IMG/VR virus record: IMGVR_UViG_3300010413_000004
Span: 1-64,000 of that record
Direction: 5' to 3' (one strand)
Length of the DNA stretch: 64,000 nucleotides
Source of the DNA: a virus
The translations under genes were made by a program, and so were the position numbers. Below, piece after piece: positions 19,298 through 31,960 of this stretch. The notes beneath the pieces were generated by a model. That model was not told where the DNA came from, did not search any database, and saw only the letters and a program-made list of their open reading frames with translations. The first letter of the stretch is position 1. The number at the start of each line of letters is the position of its first letter.

Positions 19298-19831
19298 ATG
19301 TCAACAACCGAGAAGAAAACCAGAAAAACCAAAGCTAAAGGAAAGTATTACATTGATAAAAAGGAATTACTTGCTGAAGTAGTCGCAAGTAAAGAACAGG
19401 GAGCAATGTCAGATCGTCTGGCAGCCATGCTGCAGCTTCTTACGGAGAAGTATTCCATGTCGCCACAGTACATTAGATACTCATTCAAGGAAGACATGAA
19501 GAGTTTTGCTATGATGTCATTGGTGCATACTTGGAAAAGTTTTAAACCTGAGAAAAGTGATAACCCTTTTGCATTCTATACGCAATGTATCAAACATTCC
19601 TTCATCCAATATCTCAATAAAGAGAAGAAGCACCGAATTGTTCGTGATACGTTGTTGGTGTATCATGGAATGAATCCATCATACACATATCAGAATGAAT
19701 ACCAAGATAAGTTCCATGAGCAACACTATGGCGATGGTTCATCCAATGATACCGAAAACGAAGATACAACAAGTTCAATAGATTTAAACGAAGATAGTTC
19801 ATCTACATTTGATAGCACATACTTGTCATAA
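19298..19831 (+). CDS. 55: Late transcription sigma factor gp55
   Basis: 177 residues. The core matches T4 gp55, a minimal sigma that directs host RNA polymerase to TATAAATA promoters: FKEDMKSFAMMSLVHTWKSFKPEKSDNPFAFYTQCIKHSFIQYLNKEKKHR corresponds to sigma region 2. The N-terminus is basic. The C-terminal 45 residues are rich in Ser, Thr, Asp and Glu and end in STFDSTYLS; in T4 the C-terminus of gp55 carries the sliding-clamp contact, so this end may do so. AAGGAG lies seven bases before the ATG. The many NATAAATA boxes in the window are the expected targets. Confidence 0.9.
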   Translation: MSTTEKKTRKTKAKGKYYIDKKELLAEVVASKEQGAMSDRLAAMLQLLTEKYSMSPQYIRYSFKEDMKSFAMMSLVHTWKSFKPEKSDNPFAFYTQCIKHSFIQYLNKEKKHRIVRDTLLVYHGMNPSYTYQNEYQDKFHEQHYGDGSSNDTENEDTTSSIDLNEDSSSTFDSTYLS

Positions 19832-24225: not shown

Positions 24226-25833
24226 ATGTCAAAGAATATAATGGATTACTGGGCGTTTGGCGATAAAATGCCACCAAGAAAGAGTCAACAAATAGCACTA
24301 GAGTGGCTAGAAAAACAGACTGCAAAATACCTGATAATCGAAGCTCCAGTTGGAGTTGGTAAGAGTGCTATTGGTATAACGTATTCTCAATTTGTTGGTA
24401 AACGAACGCAGAAATATAGAGGCGATGCATTCATATTAACTCCACAACGTATTTTACAAGAGCAATATGAACAATCTTTTCGTAATAATGAGAAGATAAG
24501 TTTAGCTTCATTATATGGCAAAACTAATTATCCATGTGCTTCTAAAAACACAACTTGTGAAGTAGGTAGCGTAGTTAAACCTAAGTGCACAAGTTGTCCT
24601 CATGCATTAGCTAAGACAGCAGCTAAAAACTCAGCTAACACCATTTTGAATTACAAATTAGCTCTAACATCCTTTGCATATACTGAAGTATTTGATCCAC
24701 GTGAAGTGATGATTTTAGATGAATGTCACACATTAGAAGACCACTTAGTTTCCTTTGATGCACTACAAATTTCTGAATGGAAGTGTCAGAAATATAATGT
24801 CCCATATAAGAAGCAAACAGACATCAATGAAGCATTGCAGTGGTTAAAAGACGAATATTTGCCTAAAATTAAAGATGTCTTGGAAGACATGCAAGAAGAG
24901 TGTGACCACCTCTATGAAAAAGCTGGTAGTGAATTATCTCGCAAGGAAATTAAGAAACTTAAAGACTTTGATACTTTAGCTGACCATGTTGATGAAGCAA
25001 CTATGATGTCAGCACGTACCAGTGATTATGTGAATGCTAATTTCGTTTTGGTATGGGATTCAACACAATTTCATTTTAAGAGATTAACTGGTGAATATTC
25101 CTTCCATAGAATTCTTAAGCCCAAAGCCAAACGTTTCCTCTTCATGTCCTCTACCATCTTGGATAAGAATGGTTTCTGTCAGGATCTAGGAATCCCACCA
25201 GAAGACACTGCGTTTCTGACGTTGGATTCTGAATTTCCTGAAGAGAATCGACCGGTATATTACATGCCACAAATGAAGATGAATTACTCATGGAATGACC
25301 AGTCCAATAAGCGCAATAGGGATGAGATGATCAATACCATCAAATCTCTATGCGATATCCATAAAGGCGAATCAGGCATAATTCATGCGGCTAACTTTTC
25401 AGTAGCTAAGTGGTTGGTTGAAGAATTGGAAGGTGATGTACCACAACGTGTCTTCCATCACAATCCTGATAGTGGAGATGATCGAAATTCGATCATCTAT
25501 GCATTCACTTCTTCTCCTAAACCTGGAATCTTAATCTCTCCATCCTCAACTGAGGGATTGGATCTTCAAGGAGATCTTGGTCGGTTTGCCATCTTTGCAA
25601 AAGTACCCTTTGGATTCTTGGGAGATCAGTGGATTAAACGTAGGATGGAAATGTCTGGAGAGTGGTACGCAAGAAGAGCTCTAATCGATATTATCCAAGG
25701 TGGAGGACGTGTAGTTCGTAGTGAAACCGACCATGGAGCTGTATATATTTTAGATCAGAGCTTTTCTGTGCTATACAAAAGATCGTATGGTATGATACCC
25801 GATTGGTGGAAGCGAGCATACCACATCATTTAA
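24226..25833 (+). CDS. DinG/XPD-type Fe-S helicase
   Basis: 535 residues. Superfamily 2 motifs: Walker A APVGVGKSA (about 40-48), DECH box (165-168), LFMSSTIL and the final GGGRVVRSETDHGA. Between motifs I and II are four cysteines (104, 111, 121, 124; CASKNTTC...CTSC) that match the iron-sulphur cluster of XPD/DinG helicases. These unwind DNA 5' to 3' and remove R-loops or other structures. Its own sigma70-like promoter suggests early expression; it is not the T4 Dda or UvsW type. The stop codon overlaps the stop of the convergent frame at 25830. Confidence 0.85.
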   Translation: MSKNIMDYWAFGDKMPPRKSQQIALEWLEKQTAKYLIIEAPVGVGKSAIGITYSQFVGKRTQKYRGDAFILTPQRILQEQYEQSFRNNEKISLASLYGKTNYPCASKNTTCEVGSVVKPKCTSCPHALAKTAAKNSANTILNYKLALTSFAYTEVFDPREVMILDECHTLEDHLVSFDALQISEWKCQKYNVPYKKQTDINEALQWLKDEYLPKIKDVLEDMQEECDHLYEKAGSELSRKEIKKLKDFDTLADHVDEATMMSARTSDYVNANFVLVWDSTQFHFKRLTGEYSFHRILKPKAKRFLFMSSTILDKNGFCQDLGIPPEDTAFLTLDSEFPEENRPVYYMPQMKMNYSWNDQSNKRNRDEMINTIKSLCDIHKGESGIIHAANFSVAKWLVEELEGDVPQRVFHHNPDSGDDRNSIIYAFTSSPKPGILISPSSTEGLDLQGDLGRFAIFAKVPFGFLGDQWIKRRMEMSGEWYARRALIDIIQGGGRVVRSETDHGAVYILDQSFSVLYKRSYGMIPDWWKRAYHII

Positions 25834-26018
25834 TATTGAGGATGAGGTCGATTTGCTTCTGTTTTCAATCGTTTTTCGATAAAAATAGCAATTCTGTCAC
25901 GTTCACCATATGTGCGCCGGAGCATATCATCATATGATATTGCTCCTCGCATAAAGTATGTCAATTCTATAGTGCTATCTAAGATGATTTGAGCTTCTCG
26001 CTGAAGACGACCAAACAT
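25830..26018 (-). CDS. Second-frame part of a tail assembly chaperone (probably reached by -1 frameshift)
   Basis: 62 codons (MFGRLQREAQIILDSTIELTYFMRGAISYDDMLRR...) in the -1 frame relative to the gp26-like gene that ends at 26054. The frame is open back to the slippery site at 26060-26066, so a fusion of about 345 residues (269 from the first frame, 14 junction residues, then these 62) would form. The ATG at 26016-26018 has no ribosome site and lies inside the predicted stimulatory stem-loop, which argues against independent translation. The arrangement parallels gpG/gpGT of lambda. Small, conserved-looking, charged and helical. Confidence 0.75.
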   Translation of the reverse strand: MFGRLQREAQIILDSTIELTYFMRGAISYDDMLRRTYGERDRIAIFIEKRLKTEANRPHPQY

Positions 26019-26066
26019 GTCAACAATTTCTTGTTGTGTACCATTCTTCAGCGTTATGTAAAAAAA
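25999..26066 (-). promoter_or_regulatory. Programmed -1 ribosomal frameshift signal
   Basis: On the minus strand seven T (26066-26060) read T-TTT-TTT in the correct phase for tandem -1 slippage, one codon before the gp26-like stop. After a six-base spacer (ACATAA) follows a perfect 8-bp stem CGCTGAAG/CTTCAGCG (26053-26046 with 26006-25999). Its loop holds an inner 6-bp hairpin CAACAA-GAAA-TTGTTG (26036-26021). Slippery heptamer, spacing and stem are as in known bacterial and phage frameshift sites. Confidence 0.82.
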
Positions 26067-26866
26067 GCTATAGGGTTGAGGGGTGCAGCAAGCTGCACTT
26101 CCTCACCACAATCACGACAAGTAACTGTCGTTTCAAATGATGGACCCCAATCAGTAGATTCCTCAATCTTCTTATTAATCGTACGTAACCACCCTGCTGG
26201 TAGCACATTCAACCACTCACGAATTAGCTCTCTATCTTCAATTTCATCAACAGAAACAATAATGTGTAGTAGGGTATCGAACATCACTTGACGAATCCGA
26301 TCTGGCGTAGCTTCTTCACTTTCATTCAATTGCATTAGCTCAATGAAGTGTTTATATCGAATAGGTTCCAACCGTACTCTTTGACCATTTACTAGAGTCA
26401 CAGTGTATGTTGCAGCAACTTTAGTTGGGTCAATTCTCTTCGATTCTTTAATGAAAGTATCCATTGAAATGATGTACGAGTGTTCTTTTGCACCATCGCA
26501 AGTGTGAGTATGCATTATTTGCATTTCTGCACCAAACGTTACTTTTCGAAGACATATCATCAAGAAGTCTACGTCTCTTGCTAACATGTCCATTGGTTTT
26601 TTGATTTGAGGAATACATCTAGCAAACACCTCTTCGATAGCCTTACCACTGTACAGCATATCAGGAGATTTCATGACAATTTCATCAATTGTGGTCATAG
26701 GATATATGTGGACCTCACCATCTTTTACATCTGAGTTCAATTCACCATTTTCATAAAAAATTCCGCCAGATGGCAGTCTAAACGTTTCTCCTGGAATCCT
26801 TGCTCGCTCGAGTAGTGGATTGACAATTTGTGGTGGTTGAGGTGTAGTTTCGGTGTTATCTGTCAT
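26054..26866 (-). CDS. 26: gp26-type baseplate protein / tail assembly chaperone (short form)
   Basis: 270 residues. The C-terminal region WGPSFETTVTCRDCGEEVQLAAPLNPIAFF, with one CxxC, is the hallmark of the T4 gp26-type family (T4 baseplate hub/chaperone-like). The N-terminal half has RIPGETFRLPSGGIFYENGEL and TTIDEIVMKSPDMLYSGKAIEEVF, as in phage tail chaperones that recognise the tape measure protein. It sits divergently next to the tape measure gene, where such chaperones are usually found. The ATG has AGGAG eight bases upstream. The final codons run over a T7 slippery site, so a longer -1 product is expected at some frequency. Confidence 0.82.
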   Translation of the reverse strand: MTDNTETTPQPPQIVNPLLERARIPGETFRLPSGGIFYENGELNSDVKDGEVHIYPMTTIDEIVMKSPDMLYSGKAIEEVFARCIPQIKKPMDMLARDVDFLMICLRKVTFGAEMQIMHTHTCDGAKEHSYIISMDTFIKESKRIDPTKVAATYTVTLVNGQRVRLEPIRYKHFIELMQLNESEEATPDRIRQVMFDTLLHIIVSVDEIEDRELIREWLNVLPAGWLRTINKKIEESTDWGPSFETTVTCRDCGEEVQLAAPLNPIAFFT

Positions 26867-26887
26867 ATGTTTCTCCTATTGATATAG

Positions 26888-26895
26888 TATATATC
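26888..26895 (-). promoter_or_regulatory. GATATATA box before the gp26-like gene
   Basis: GATATATA on the minus strand, about 20 bases before the ATG and ahead of the ribosome site; the following ATACTATAT is AT-rich. A close match stands before the portal gene at 29314. Confidence 0.4.
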
Positions 26896-26936
26896 ATGGT
26901 TAACCTACTGCAAAAACGGCATAATGAGGTCGCCTG

Positions 26937-26944
26937 TATAAATA
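26937..26944 (+). promoter_or_regulatory. Late promoter TATAAATA for the tape measure gene
   Basis: A perfect TATAAATA on the plus strand, 27 bases before the ATG at 26972; the ribosome site AGGA follows. Confidence 0.7.
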
Positions 26945-26971
26945 CACAACAAACCAACGTAGGACCACATA

Positions 26972-29293
26972 ATGGCAATAACACCCGCTGATCTTGAAGA
27001 TTTTGCACGAGTACTCAAAGGTGCAATGAAAACATCGAATTTGGGAGACACCATCCAAACTCCATCTCAACGTGCCGAAAAATCTAAAGAACAAAAGATT
27101 CTGAAAGATAATTCATCAGCTCTGAATTTCCTCAAAGAGGCTCTGAAGAAGAATAGCGATATCCTATCCAATATGTCCAACATCACGAAGGCTAGCAACA
27201 AAGTCTTCCAAGATGCTGTTGACTCTGCGTCATCACTCAAAGAACTCAACAAGCTACCAGAACACTTCAAGCGCGCTATGGATCGCTCTAGTTCAACGCT
27301 ACTAAAGGGAATGACTGGTAGCGTTGAGACTCTAGAAGATATGTTTACAGGCCAAGCAAAAATAGAAAAGCTGCCAGAAGTTAAAGCACTGATGCAATCG
27401 TTTGTCGATGGTGAAATGTCGATGATGAAACTCGAAGCACATATAGAAACACTGGGGTATTCTGCTGAAGATGCTGCAAAGATCGTTGGTAAATTTGGTC
27501 CAACTGTCGCTGGTGCAGATGGATATATATCGAAATATAGCAAAGCCACAAATATTGCCCAAAAAACAGTTGATAACTTCGATAATGAAATAAGAGAAGC
27601 GAATGATAGCGTTCGTAAATTTGGTGACAGTGTTTCTGCTAGCGATAGTAGGTTAAAAAGTCTTGGTAAATCAGCTGCTTCTTTAGCAGTATTGCTCGGT
27701 AAGGAACTATTCAGCGCAGCTGAAGCATCTATGAAGTTTGGTGCAGAACTTAGCCTAGTTCAATCTCGTTTGGCTGGTATGGCACCAGAAGAATTTGCGC
27801 AAATGCAAGCTGAAAACCGTCAGGCGATCAATGCATTGACAGGTGGGTTTAACGAATTCGATACAATTCTATCGAGCTCAAATAAGCAACTACTCTTGTA
27901 TACAGGATCTTTAAAAGATAGCTCAAAGTTGGTTGCAAACATGATAACCACGAGTAGAATGCTAGGCGATTCTACAGTCGATACGAACAAATTTGTACAG
28001 AGTCAGAGCGCAGCATTTAAGTCTTTCAATCGACAGTTGAGCATGACTGCTGATGAATTTGCATCGATGAATGACCGTTTAATTCAAGATTCGGACGTCA
28101 GAGCCACATTGTATAAGATGGGCGAAAAGGAACGTGTGCAGCACTTCCAGGGTTTGCAGATGCAAGTCAAGACGTACAGATCGTGGGGGTTACTGCAAGG
28201 CCAAGCTGAAGAATTAGCAAAATCAATGGAACGTGCAGCTGGCATGGGCGCCAAAGAACGTCTTAAGATGGCAGCTCGTCAGCGCGCTGTTATGGGCGCG
28301 TTTGGTATGGGAGGCGTGGGTGCTGAAGCACAAAAAATTCGTATAAAAGGTGCTCGAGCAACTCCCGAAGAACAAGCTCGTTTAGCTGAAATTAATAAAC
28401 AGTTTGCTGATGTTGTATCTAAAAAAATGGGGGATTCATTCCAAAGTGAGTTGTTAACTCAAACGATGTTACAGAAGGCTCAATTAGATGACACATTTGG
28501 TCCAAAAGGTACAATGGCAAACACTGTACTTGCTGCCGGTGCACAACAAACAGGTAAGATGGAAGATGCTGTTGGCAAATGGACCAGTAAAGTTGGTGGT
28601 GACAAGATAGTACAAGCTATCACTGATTTAAAACAAACATTAGTTTCCTTCTTAGGTAGCAGTTTCATTGCAGCTTTGGTGGGCGCCCTTGCTATTAGCA
28701 ATTTTGGCAAAGGTCTGATGAACTTAGTTGGTAAAGGTGGAGGTAGCTTATTATCAGGTCTTAAAGGATTAGTGTCTGGAGAAGGAGCTTCAATGTTAGG
28801 CACTGCCGCCAGAGGAGCAGCTCGGTTTGCGGGACCAGCTGCCGCTGTTGGGGTGGTCGGAAAGGATGTATACGATCTAGCAACAGGAGACACATCAAAC
28901 GAGAACAAATATGGTGTTGGTTTTGGTGTAGCAGGTGGCATTATAGGTGCTTTTGGTGGTCCAGTTGGTATTGCAATTGGGGCAAGTCTTGGCAACGTTG
29001 TTGGTAATGAAATCGGAAAATATCTTGATTCATTAGACAAACCAACGAACGATGTTGCAGCGAAACAAATGGCTCAAGCAGAGCAACTTGAGGCCACGAT
29101 GGCAGATCTAAAAGATGCTATTGAACACAATAACAAGGCTGCAATGGAAACTGCAATCAACACAGCTAAGACTCAAATGGCTATTCTCGACCAAACAGCA
29201 TCGCAGAAAGATGAAGCTCAAAAAACAAGAGACGAAACTAAGACTAATCAGCGTCAAGTATTAATCCGAAGACGTGGAACAGGAATGCGGTAA
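26972..29293 (+). CDS. Tape measure protein (gp29 role)
   Basis: 773 residues, largely helical, rich in Ala, Lys and Ser. Long amphipathic stretches fill the first two thirds. A hydrophobic Gly/Ala-rich section near 555-700 (SSFIAALVGALAISNFG, GVAGGIIGAFGGPVGIAIGAS) is typical of tape measure proteins, which fix tail length and leave the tail first on infection. The basic C-terminus (VLIRRRGTGMR) is also common. Neighbours agree: chaperone on one side, portal on the other. It shows little similarity to T4 gp29 by eye, so the call rests on composition, size and context. Confidence 0.75.
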   Translation: MAITPADLEDFARVLKGAMKTSNLGDTIQTPSQRAEKSKEQKILKDNSSALNFLKEALKKNSDILSNMSNITKASNKVFQDAVDSASSLKELNKLPEHFKRAMDRSSSTLLKGMTGSVETLEDMFTGQAKIEKLPEVKALMQSFVDGEMSMMKLEAHIETLGYSAEDAAKIVGKFGPTVAGADGYISKYSKATNIAQKTVDNFDNEIREANDSVRKFGDSVSASDSRLKSLGKSAASLAVLLGKELFSAAEASMKFGAELSLVQSRLAGMAPEEFAQMQAENRQAINALTGGFNEFDTILSSSNKQLLLYTGSLKDSSKLVANMITTSRMLGDSTVDTNKFVQSQSAAFKSFNRQLSMTADEFASMNDRLIQDSDVRATLYKMGEKERVQHFQGLQMQVKTYRSWGLLQGQAEELAKSMERAAGMGAKERLKMAARQRAVMGAFGMGGVGAEAQKIRIKGARATPEEQARLAEINKQFADVVSKKMGDSFQSELLTQTMLQKAQLDDTFGPKGTMANTVLAAGAQQTGKMEDAVGKWTSKVGGDKIVQAITDLKQTLVSFLGSSFIAALVGALAISNFGKGLMNLVGKGGGSLLSGLKGLVSGEGASMLGTAARGAARFAGPAAAVGVVGKDVYDLATGDTSNENKYGVGFGVAGGIIGAFGGPVGIAIGASLGNVVGNEIGKYLDSLDKPTNDVAAKQMAQAEQLEATMADLKDAIEHNNKAAMETAINTAKTQMAILDQTASQKDEAQKTRDETKTNQRQVLIRRRGTGMR

Positions 29294-31207: not shown

Positions 31208-31960
31208 ATGGCACGTAGCAAAAAAAATTACGGTAAAGACGTTCGTAAGGTCGGCAAGTCAGCTGACGCTAAGAAGAAATTGATCCACAAGATGGTAGAA
31301 GCTCTAATTAAAGAGGATTCTGCTTCAGCGACCGAACATCTCCACGTGTATCTTCAAGAAAAAATGCGCAGCATCGTCCTTAGCGAAAAAGAAGACGAGA
31401 AGGATGAAAAAGATGAAAAAGATGAAAAAGATGAAGACGAAGATGATGAAGACGATGAAGACGATGAAGACGATGAAGACGAAGATGATGAAGTAAAAGA
31501 ATCGTACCTTGGCGAGAAGTGGAAAAAGTCCGTCAAAGTTTCTCCTTCAGAAAAAGGTGAGCACTCCAAAAAGTCTCTCGAACAGCTTAGAAAAGAACTA
31601 AAATCAGCTAGAAAAGCTGGCAATACAGGTCTTGAGCGTGAATTGAATTTTGCAATTCGAGCAAAGCAAAAAGGTGCTGGTAAATGGGGCGAAGTTAAGG
31701 AAAGTGAGATTCTTGAACTAATCGATGAATCACTTTTAGACGAGATTTACACCATCGTTTTAGAGAAGAAGCCTTCCGCTGGTATGTCCAAAGAAGAAAA
31801 GTCTAAATTAGTCAAAAAGGCTAAAAAAGGCGAAGACGTTGGAAAACCAGGTAAGAAATTCCAAGAAATCAAACAAAAAGCTGCAAACCGATATCACTCC
31901 GAAGAAATCGGAAAGAAAGTTGCTGGAGCAGCAATGTGGCACGGTGTCGCTAAGAAGTAA
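31208..31960 (+). CDS. Prohead core-type protein with Asp/Glu tract (gp68 position)
   Basis: 250 residues, very highly charged. N-terminal basic segment, then LHVYLQEKMRSIVL, then an acidic run of DEKDEKDE/DEDDEDD repeats (about residues 60-96), a middle with KKSLEQLRKELKSARKAGNTGLERELNFAIRAKQ, and a C-terminal FQEIKQKAANRYHSEEIGKK...MWHGVAKK. Charged, repetitive core proteins between portal and protease are usual in T4-type phages and are digested by gp21. AGGAG precedes the ATG. A strong terminator follows. Confidence 0.6.
   Translation: MARSKKNYGKDVRKVGKSADAKKKLIHKMVEALIKEDSASATEHLHVYLQEKMRSIVLSEKEDEKDEKDEKDEKDEDEDDEDDEDDEDDEDEDDEVKESYLGEKWKKSVKVSPSEKGEHSKKSLEQLRKELKSARKAGNTGLERELNFAIRAKQKGAGKWGEVKESEILELIDESLLDEIYTIVLEKKPSAGMSKEEKSKLVKKAKKGEDVGKPGKKFQEIKQKAANRYHSEEIGKKVAGAAMWHGVAKK
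31386..31493 (+). repeat. Acidic-codon microsatellite in the core protein gene
   Basis: Runs of GATGAAAAA (9 bp) followed by GATGAAGAC (9 bp) units encode the acidic tract. Slippage could change its length. Confidence 0.75.

Follow-up and report, generated by a model that had tools for sequence, protein, structure and literature searches.

A probable programmed −1 frameshift cassette in the T4 gp26-type tail assembly chaperone gene of an uncultivated phage and its relatives

Results

The genome of a large T4-like phage very probably contains a genuine programmed −1 ribosomal frameshift cassette, judging by its sequence and comparison with relatives. The cassette is located at the 3' end of a probable tail assembly chaperone (TAC) gene and would join a T4 gp26-type protein, TAC-N, to a short C-terminal domain, TAC-C, with the formation of a longer product, TAC-NC.

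Gene and slip site

The analyzed sequence (64,000 nt, hereafter the window) is a part of a 116.8-kb contig of an uncultivated virus that contains T4-type portal, major head, and SbcCD-like genes. The TAC-N gene in frame 0 occupies positions 26054–26866 (minus strand) and encodes a protein of 270 aa, the product of normal translation, which belongs to the T4 gp26/gp51 family. According to the profile searches, this protein matches the Pfam family PF12322 (T4_baseplate) with E = 1.9e-9, over the curated gathering cut-off, and phrog_150 (baseplate hub) with E = 6.9e-13. Its AlphaFold2 model has a pLDDT of 92, and the short form contains conserved, zinc-ribbon-like Cys pairs.

In frame 0, the gene ends with GCT TTT TTT ACA TAA. 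The slippery heptamer T_TTT_TTT (26060–26066, minus strand) lies in the phase of the TAC-N gene at Phe268-Phe269, and a single codon (ACA) separates the T7 run from the frame-0 stop codon TAA (26056–26054), which is included in the 6-nt spacer ACATAA (26054–26059, minus strand). A heptamer of the X_XXY_YYZ type in the phase of the upstream frame, by which a −1 frameshift cassette is recognized, is present in the window. The −1 frame continues as the TAC-C extension of 76 codons (YITLKNG...HPQY; 25833–26060, minus strand; stop codon at 25832–25830), identified from its open frame, codon bias, and homology; after a −1 shift, the TAC-NC fusion would contain 269 + 76 = 345 aa. The initial annotation, made from the DNA sequence, had described an in-phase T-TTT-TTT one codon ahead of the stop, a six-base spacer, and a pair of products of about 270 and 345 residues. 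The coordinates and the computed lengths agree with this description, and the observation of a −1 frameshift cassette was confirmed as accurate in every detail.

Conservation of the slip site outside the family of T4

The nearest named relatives of the window protein are XacN1 (42% identity) and RAS14, followed by many jumbo phages. A DNA-level search of phage records using positions 25500–27000 found no relatives, and the window protein, used as the sole query against viral contigs, retrieved none either; the viral-contig relatives were obtained with subgroup alignments, a 10-sequence alignment being too divergent as a query. In total, 192 loci were compared, namely, the window, ten named phages, cyanophage S-PM2, and 180 viral-contig loci, near-duplicate contigs included. 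The non-redundant sets contained 56 representatives (70% identity) and 31 representatives (50%).

An in-phase T_TTT_TTT or T_TTT_TTC was found at the C-terminal Phe-Phe in 188 of the 192 loci, most relatives having six T followed by C and not seven T. Three more loci contain T_TTT_TTA at the same Phe-Phe, and the heptamer is absent in one. Among 174 other long ORFs of the representative loci, none has an in-phase T_TTT_TTY within the last 30 codons. The cassette is not a product of chance, because 191 of the 192 loci keep T_TTT_TTN at the same Phe-Phe.

The synonymous positions of the heptamer are constrained as well. The codon preceding Phe-Phe ends with T in all 56 representatives, although codon usage predicts 32 (log10 P about −15), and TTT is the first Phe codon in 56 of 56 (log10 P about −11), where the P values assume independent representatives and the representatives were chosen among site-carrying loci, by which 1 of the 192 loci was excluded. 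The amino acid preceding Phe-Phe itself varies (A, S, T, N, H, R, G, D, or Y). Alignment of the T7 run, spacer, and stem in relatives and a search for synonymous disruption of the T7 run had been proposed as checks in the initial annotation; T7 or T6C proved to be conserved at the same Phe-Phe despite extreme divergence, and the heptamer, instead of being disrupted, is under constraint at synonymous positions in the 56 representatives.

Several individual loci can be described separately. The Vibrio phage Bakedbeans contains the heptamer and a −1 frame of 52 codons. The only one of the 192 loci without T_TTT_TTN (L025, 3001–3820, from IMGVR_UViG_3300002055_000003) reads GCA CTC TTT TCC TAA and has an intact −1-frame domain; this is either another recoding site or a sequencing error. 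In the Pseudomonas phage Cygsa01 (locus L213, 1072–1982), which was added to the 192 loci, the gp26-type gene ends with AGC ATT TTC ACC TAATG without the heptamer, and the ATG that overlaps this stop serves as the start of a small downstream ORF. In the Cygsa01 lineage, frameshifting may be replaced by translational coupling.

RNA structure downstream of the heptamer

A putative stimulatory stem of 8 bp with perfect pairing begins 6 nt past the heptamer, the expected distance being about 5–9 nt. Its 5' arm (CGCTGAAG / CGCUGAAG; 26046–26053, minus strand) was assigned from the minimum free energy (MFE) and the family-wide excess of structure, and its 3' arm (CTTCAGCG / CUUCAGCG; 25999–26006, minus strand) from folding. 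Folding also placed a hairpin, CAACAA-GAAA-UUGUUG (26021–26036, minus strand), in the loop of the stem. The perfect 8-bp stem and the GAAA-capped hairpin in its loop, both described in the initial annotation, are located at these positions.

The window structure has an MFE of −20 kcal/mol, with a z of about −2.5; of 200 shuffled sequences, 4 were equally stable, and a comparable 8-bp stem was present in 5.7% of the shuffles. By itself, the RNA structure of the window is only moderately unusual and is suggestive. Across the family, the region just past the slip site has a mean z of −1.33 vs. −0.34 and −0.13 in the flanking controls (P = 0.001 and 7e-5, respectively). Stems of 8 bp occur in 19 of the 56 representatives vs. 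about 5% expected, about two thirds of the representatives being without such a stem. The stem sequences are unrelated between relatives, and the stem of XacN1 has 11 bp.

Relation to gp26 and gp51 of T4

In T4, gp26 (208 aa) and gp51 (249 aa) both belong to PF12322 and are encoded by adjacent, divergent genes. The profile of the cyanophage −1-frame sequences matches residues 209–244 of gp51 with E = 1.3e-6 (among 705 ORFs). The jumbo-phage −1-frame profile aligns to the cyanophage profile (hhalign probability 64, E = 6.5e-5) and has no direct match with gp51. Since the C-terminus of gp51 and the cyanophage domain are homologous, gp26 is the counterpart of the short form, and gp51 that of the frameshift fusion, encoded in T4 as a gene in its own right. 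In this respect, gp26 is similar to TAC-N of the window, and gp51, with its homologous C-terminal domain, to TAC-NC. A fusion of a gp26-type protein with the extension, which the initial annotation had suggested seeking in relatives, was thus found in T4 itself. In five members of the Straboviridae family (T4, AM101, phiAS4, CC31, and the RB49-like 011D4), the heptamer is absent and a gp51-type gene adjoins in the divergent orientation, whereas the window contains one frameshift gene.

Probable chaperone function and the neighboring gene

From homology and the literature, the function of a tail assembly chaperone is very probable for the window gene. The view of gp26-type proteins as the tail chaperones of the T4 superfamily, put forward in the initial annotation, gained support from the PF12322 homology, from the gp51 fusion, and, marginally, from the top fold match. 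For the predicted fold of TAC-N, the best match of 350,542 PDB chains was 2ob9, the HK97 tail assembly chaperone (E = 0.45, probability 0.69, below usual significance). As for the predicted fold of TAC-C, the viral-library matches include the tape measure chaperone of phage Moogle (TM 0.69 over 56 columns, E = 2.8, probability 0.82, likewise below usual significance). Neither match is significant alone, and their agreement in direction is marginal evidence from predicted models. The lambda gpG protein is absent among the family matches of the window protein.

According to the existing annotation, the protein would be a structural subunit of the baseplate hub, and its frameshifted form would not be a tail chaperone. 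The PHROG and GenBank labels read baseplate hub, and T4 gp26 was historically considered a hub component or a hub assembly chaperone (PMC3004832). However, assembly of T4 requires gp51, which is missing from the finished particle, and both gp26 and gp51 are described as chaperones of hub assembly (PMC3004832). In addition, the two proteins of AM101 are annotated as assembly chaperones of the tape measure protein. A TAC would also agree with the existence of two forms, with a slippery site near the 3' end of the gene, and with the HK97 chaperone as the best PDB match, so that a structural hub subunit is an improbable identity for the protein and a tail assembly chaperone is the preferred one.

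The gene adjacent to the chaperone gene in the head-to-head orientation (26972–29293, plus strand) encodes a protein of 773 aa and adjoins the portal gene. This protein has no match in Pfam and PHROG; the gene at the equivalent position in RaK2 and fEgEco12 is annotated as tape-measure-like. By position only, the neighbor is probably the tape measure protein. The initial annotation had placed the chaperone gene beside the tape measure gene: the identity of the adjoining gene is positional, without a family match, and its location on the opposite strand is unlike that in lambda, where the chaperone gene is upstream of the tape measure gene.

About 105 bases (26867–26971) lie between the two head-to-head genes on opposite strands. 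The same head-to-head order of the chaperone gene and the probable tape measure gene is also observed in many jumbo relatives, whereas the lambda order is co-directional. Elsewhere in the window, a 177-aa ORF (19298–19831, plus strand) resembles, by eye, a sigma factor for late transcription similar to gp55 of T4. A 250-aa ORF (31208–31960, plus strand), situated between the portal and major head genes, contains a long Asp/Glu-rich repeat flanked by two lysine-rich parts.

The −1-frame extension

TAC-C of the window is homologous to the ORF downstream of the XacN1 gene (E = 3e-11), and its AlphaFold2 model is helical and confident (pLDDT 91.7). The −1-frame domain is present in all 192 loci, where the frame is open for 59–101 codons, and many members share the core YMRG-x-S-x-x-EAW-x-LS-x-x-ER. 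Outside its overlap with frame 0, the −1 frame had 335/210/1031 substitutions at codon positions 1/2/3, as counted over 53 non-overlapping close pairs; among the codons with a single change, 805 were synonymous and 236 non-synonymous. By these counts, the −1 frame evolves as a protein, under protein-level selection. A Pfam search with the TAC-C domain found no family, and five TAC-C members have the PHROGs label “baseplate hub assembly catalyst”.

The extension has been recorded as separate proteins in several loci (L001, 4846–5028; L005, 4867–5046; L007, 4831–5040; L003, 4837–5067). In phrog_634, phrog_18291, and public records, it is labelled as “hypothetical”, “unknown function”, or “baseplate hub assembly catalyst”. 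What these entries list as separate small proteins is the C-terminal portion of the chaperone made by frameshifting.

Such listing of the downstream frame as its own ORF would agree with a separate small gene that has its own start or is translated by termination-reinitiation at the TAC-N stop codon, and in some relatives an ATG does overlap or abut this stop (ATGA in L003 and L004; TAATG in L005 and Cygsa01). In the window, however, the first ATG of the −1 frame (26018–26016) is located 14 codons past the slip site, in the loop of the stem, and has no ribosome site: the Shine-Dalgarno pairing is −0.7 kcal/mol at this ATG vs. −7.3 kcal/mol at the start of the TAC-N gene. The initial annotation had also noted a downstream frame open through 62 further codons, with an ATG inside the structure and without a ribosome site, which these values bear out. 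Among the 56 representatives, the distance between the slip site and the first ATG ranges from 1 to 56 codons; seven extensions have no ATG, two of which lack any ATG, GTG, or TTG. Strong Shine-Dalgarno pairing was detected at the first ATG of the extension in 2 of 56 representatives vs. 28 of 56 at the gp26 start. A ribosome site with a separate conserved start for the small frame, named in the initial annotation as evidence against the cassette, was not conserved among the 56 representatives. The constraint on the heptamer at synonymous positions and the fusion encoded outright by T4 also speak against a separate gene, which is highly improbable for the window; as a general mechanism, a separate gene or reinitiation was rejected on the basis of the start-codon and Shine-Dalgarno scans.

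Just as improbable is a change of frame by RNA polymerase slippage: homopolymer transcriptional slippage is a known alternative to ribosomal frameshifting (PMC5009743) and the window has a run of seven T, but most relatives have six T and then C, a short run for the polymerase, and the codon phase is always X_XXX_XXY of ribosomal tandem slippage, with a structure downstream.

Discussion

The preferred reading is programmed −1 ribosomal frameshifting, and we infer that shifting occurs, as well as its rate and the binding partners of the products. The majority of ribosomes would terminate at the TAA codon with the production of TAC-N of 270 aa. Some ribosomes, held up by the nested stem-loop that follows the 6-nt spacer, would move back by one base on U_UUU_UUU and synthesize TAC-NC of 345 aa, in which the extra 76 residues would form a small helical domain. 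In lambda, the tape measure protein is coated by many copies of the short gpG and few of the long gpGT, whose extension brings in subunits of the tail tube (PMC5009743). By analogy, many copies of TAC-N and a few copies of TAC-NC may coat the tape measure protein of the window phage. The TAC-C domain may then recruit the tail tube protein, after which TAC-N and TAC-NC would leave.

The slippery heptamer of lambda gpG/gpGT is G_GGA_AAG, from which the U_UUU_UUU of the window differs. In the T4-like phages, Vladimirov and colleagues reportedly found frameshifting conserved in several groups and separate genes in the T4 group.

The T4-like tail chaperones TAC-N and TAC-NC were identified by Vladimirov, Gautam, and Davidson (2022; Virology 566:9-15, doi 10.1016/j.virol.2021.11.003), and they share the protein family of the window gene. 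Poly-T −1 slippery sites in the TAC-N genes of T4-like phages are credited to the same authors in a later paper (PMC12846349). In some T4-like phages, a short gene and a fused long gene replace frameshifting, which is likewise credited to Vladimirov et al. in another paper (PMC10885494). The statement “widely conserved ... except T4” (PMC5009743) predates the 2022 publication. The initial annotation was not aware of frameshifting being established for the T4 gp26-type family; in this it was out of date, since T4-like tail chaperones with poly-T frameshift sites had already been published in 2022. As T4-like frameshifted chaperones were identified in 2022, specialists would see a solid extension in the window gene, and no surprise. 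The gene joins the T4-like frameshifted tail chaperones as a new and well-supported member; it comes from an uncultivated phage, and the nearest named relative, XacN1, has 42% identity at the protein level.

A similar arrangement is known in the tail chaperone locus of Vandenendeviridae/Andersonviridae (phage Adele), where a −1 frameshift with a poly-T motif, GTTTTT, is conserved and the downstream ORF is routinely misannotated as a separate hypothetical gene, as here (PMC12846349). The Adele-type locus differs from the window in the phage lineage and in the slippery motif, and the two were compared through the fold match to phage Moogle, which is weak.

Two outcomes may be useful, namely, the wide range of phages compared (jumbo phages, cyanophages, and a vibriophage) and the correction of annotation. 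The results indicate that, in jumbo phages and cyanophages alike, the gene routinely labelled “baseplate hub subunit” and the following “hypothetical protein” ORF are one frameshifted chaperone gene. About 190 loci can be re-annotated by the rule of T_TTT_TTN at the C-terminal Phe-Phe followed by 52–101 codons of the −1 frame.

It is quite possible, if still tentative, that the PF12322 lineage as a whole, taken here as jumbo phages and cyanophages together with a vibriophage and metagenomic phages, started from the frameshifted gene with T_TTT_TTY, and that Straboviridae exchanged recoding for duplication and a fixed fusion (gp26 and gp51). The loci provide a comparative set for testing how two genes in T4 replaced the stoichiometry made by the frameshift. 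If the ancestral reading is true, this would be a clean case of recoding “hard-wired” into two genes, the breadth of which for jumbo phages is perhaps undocumented.
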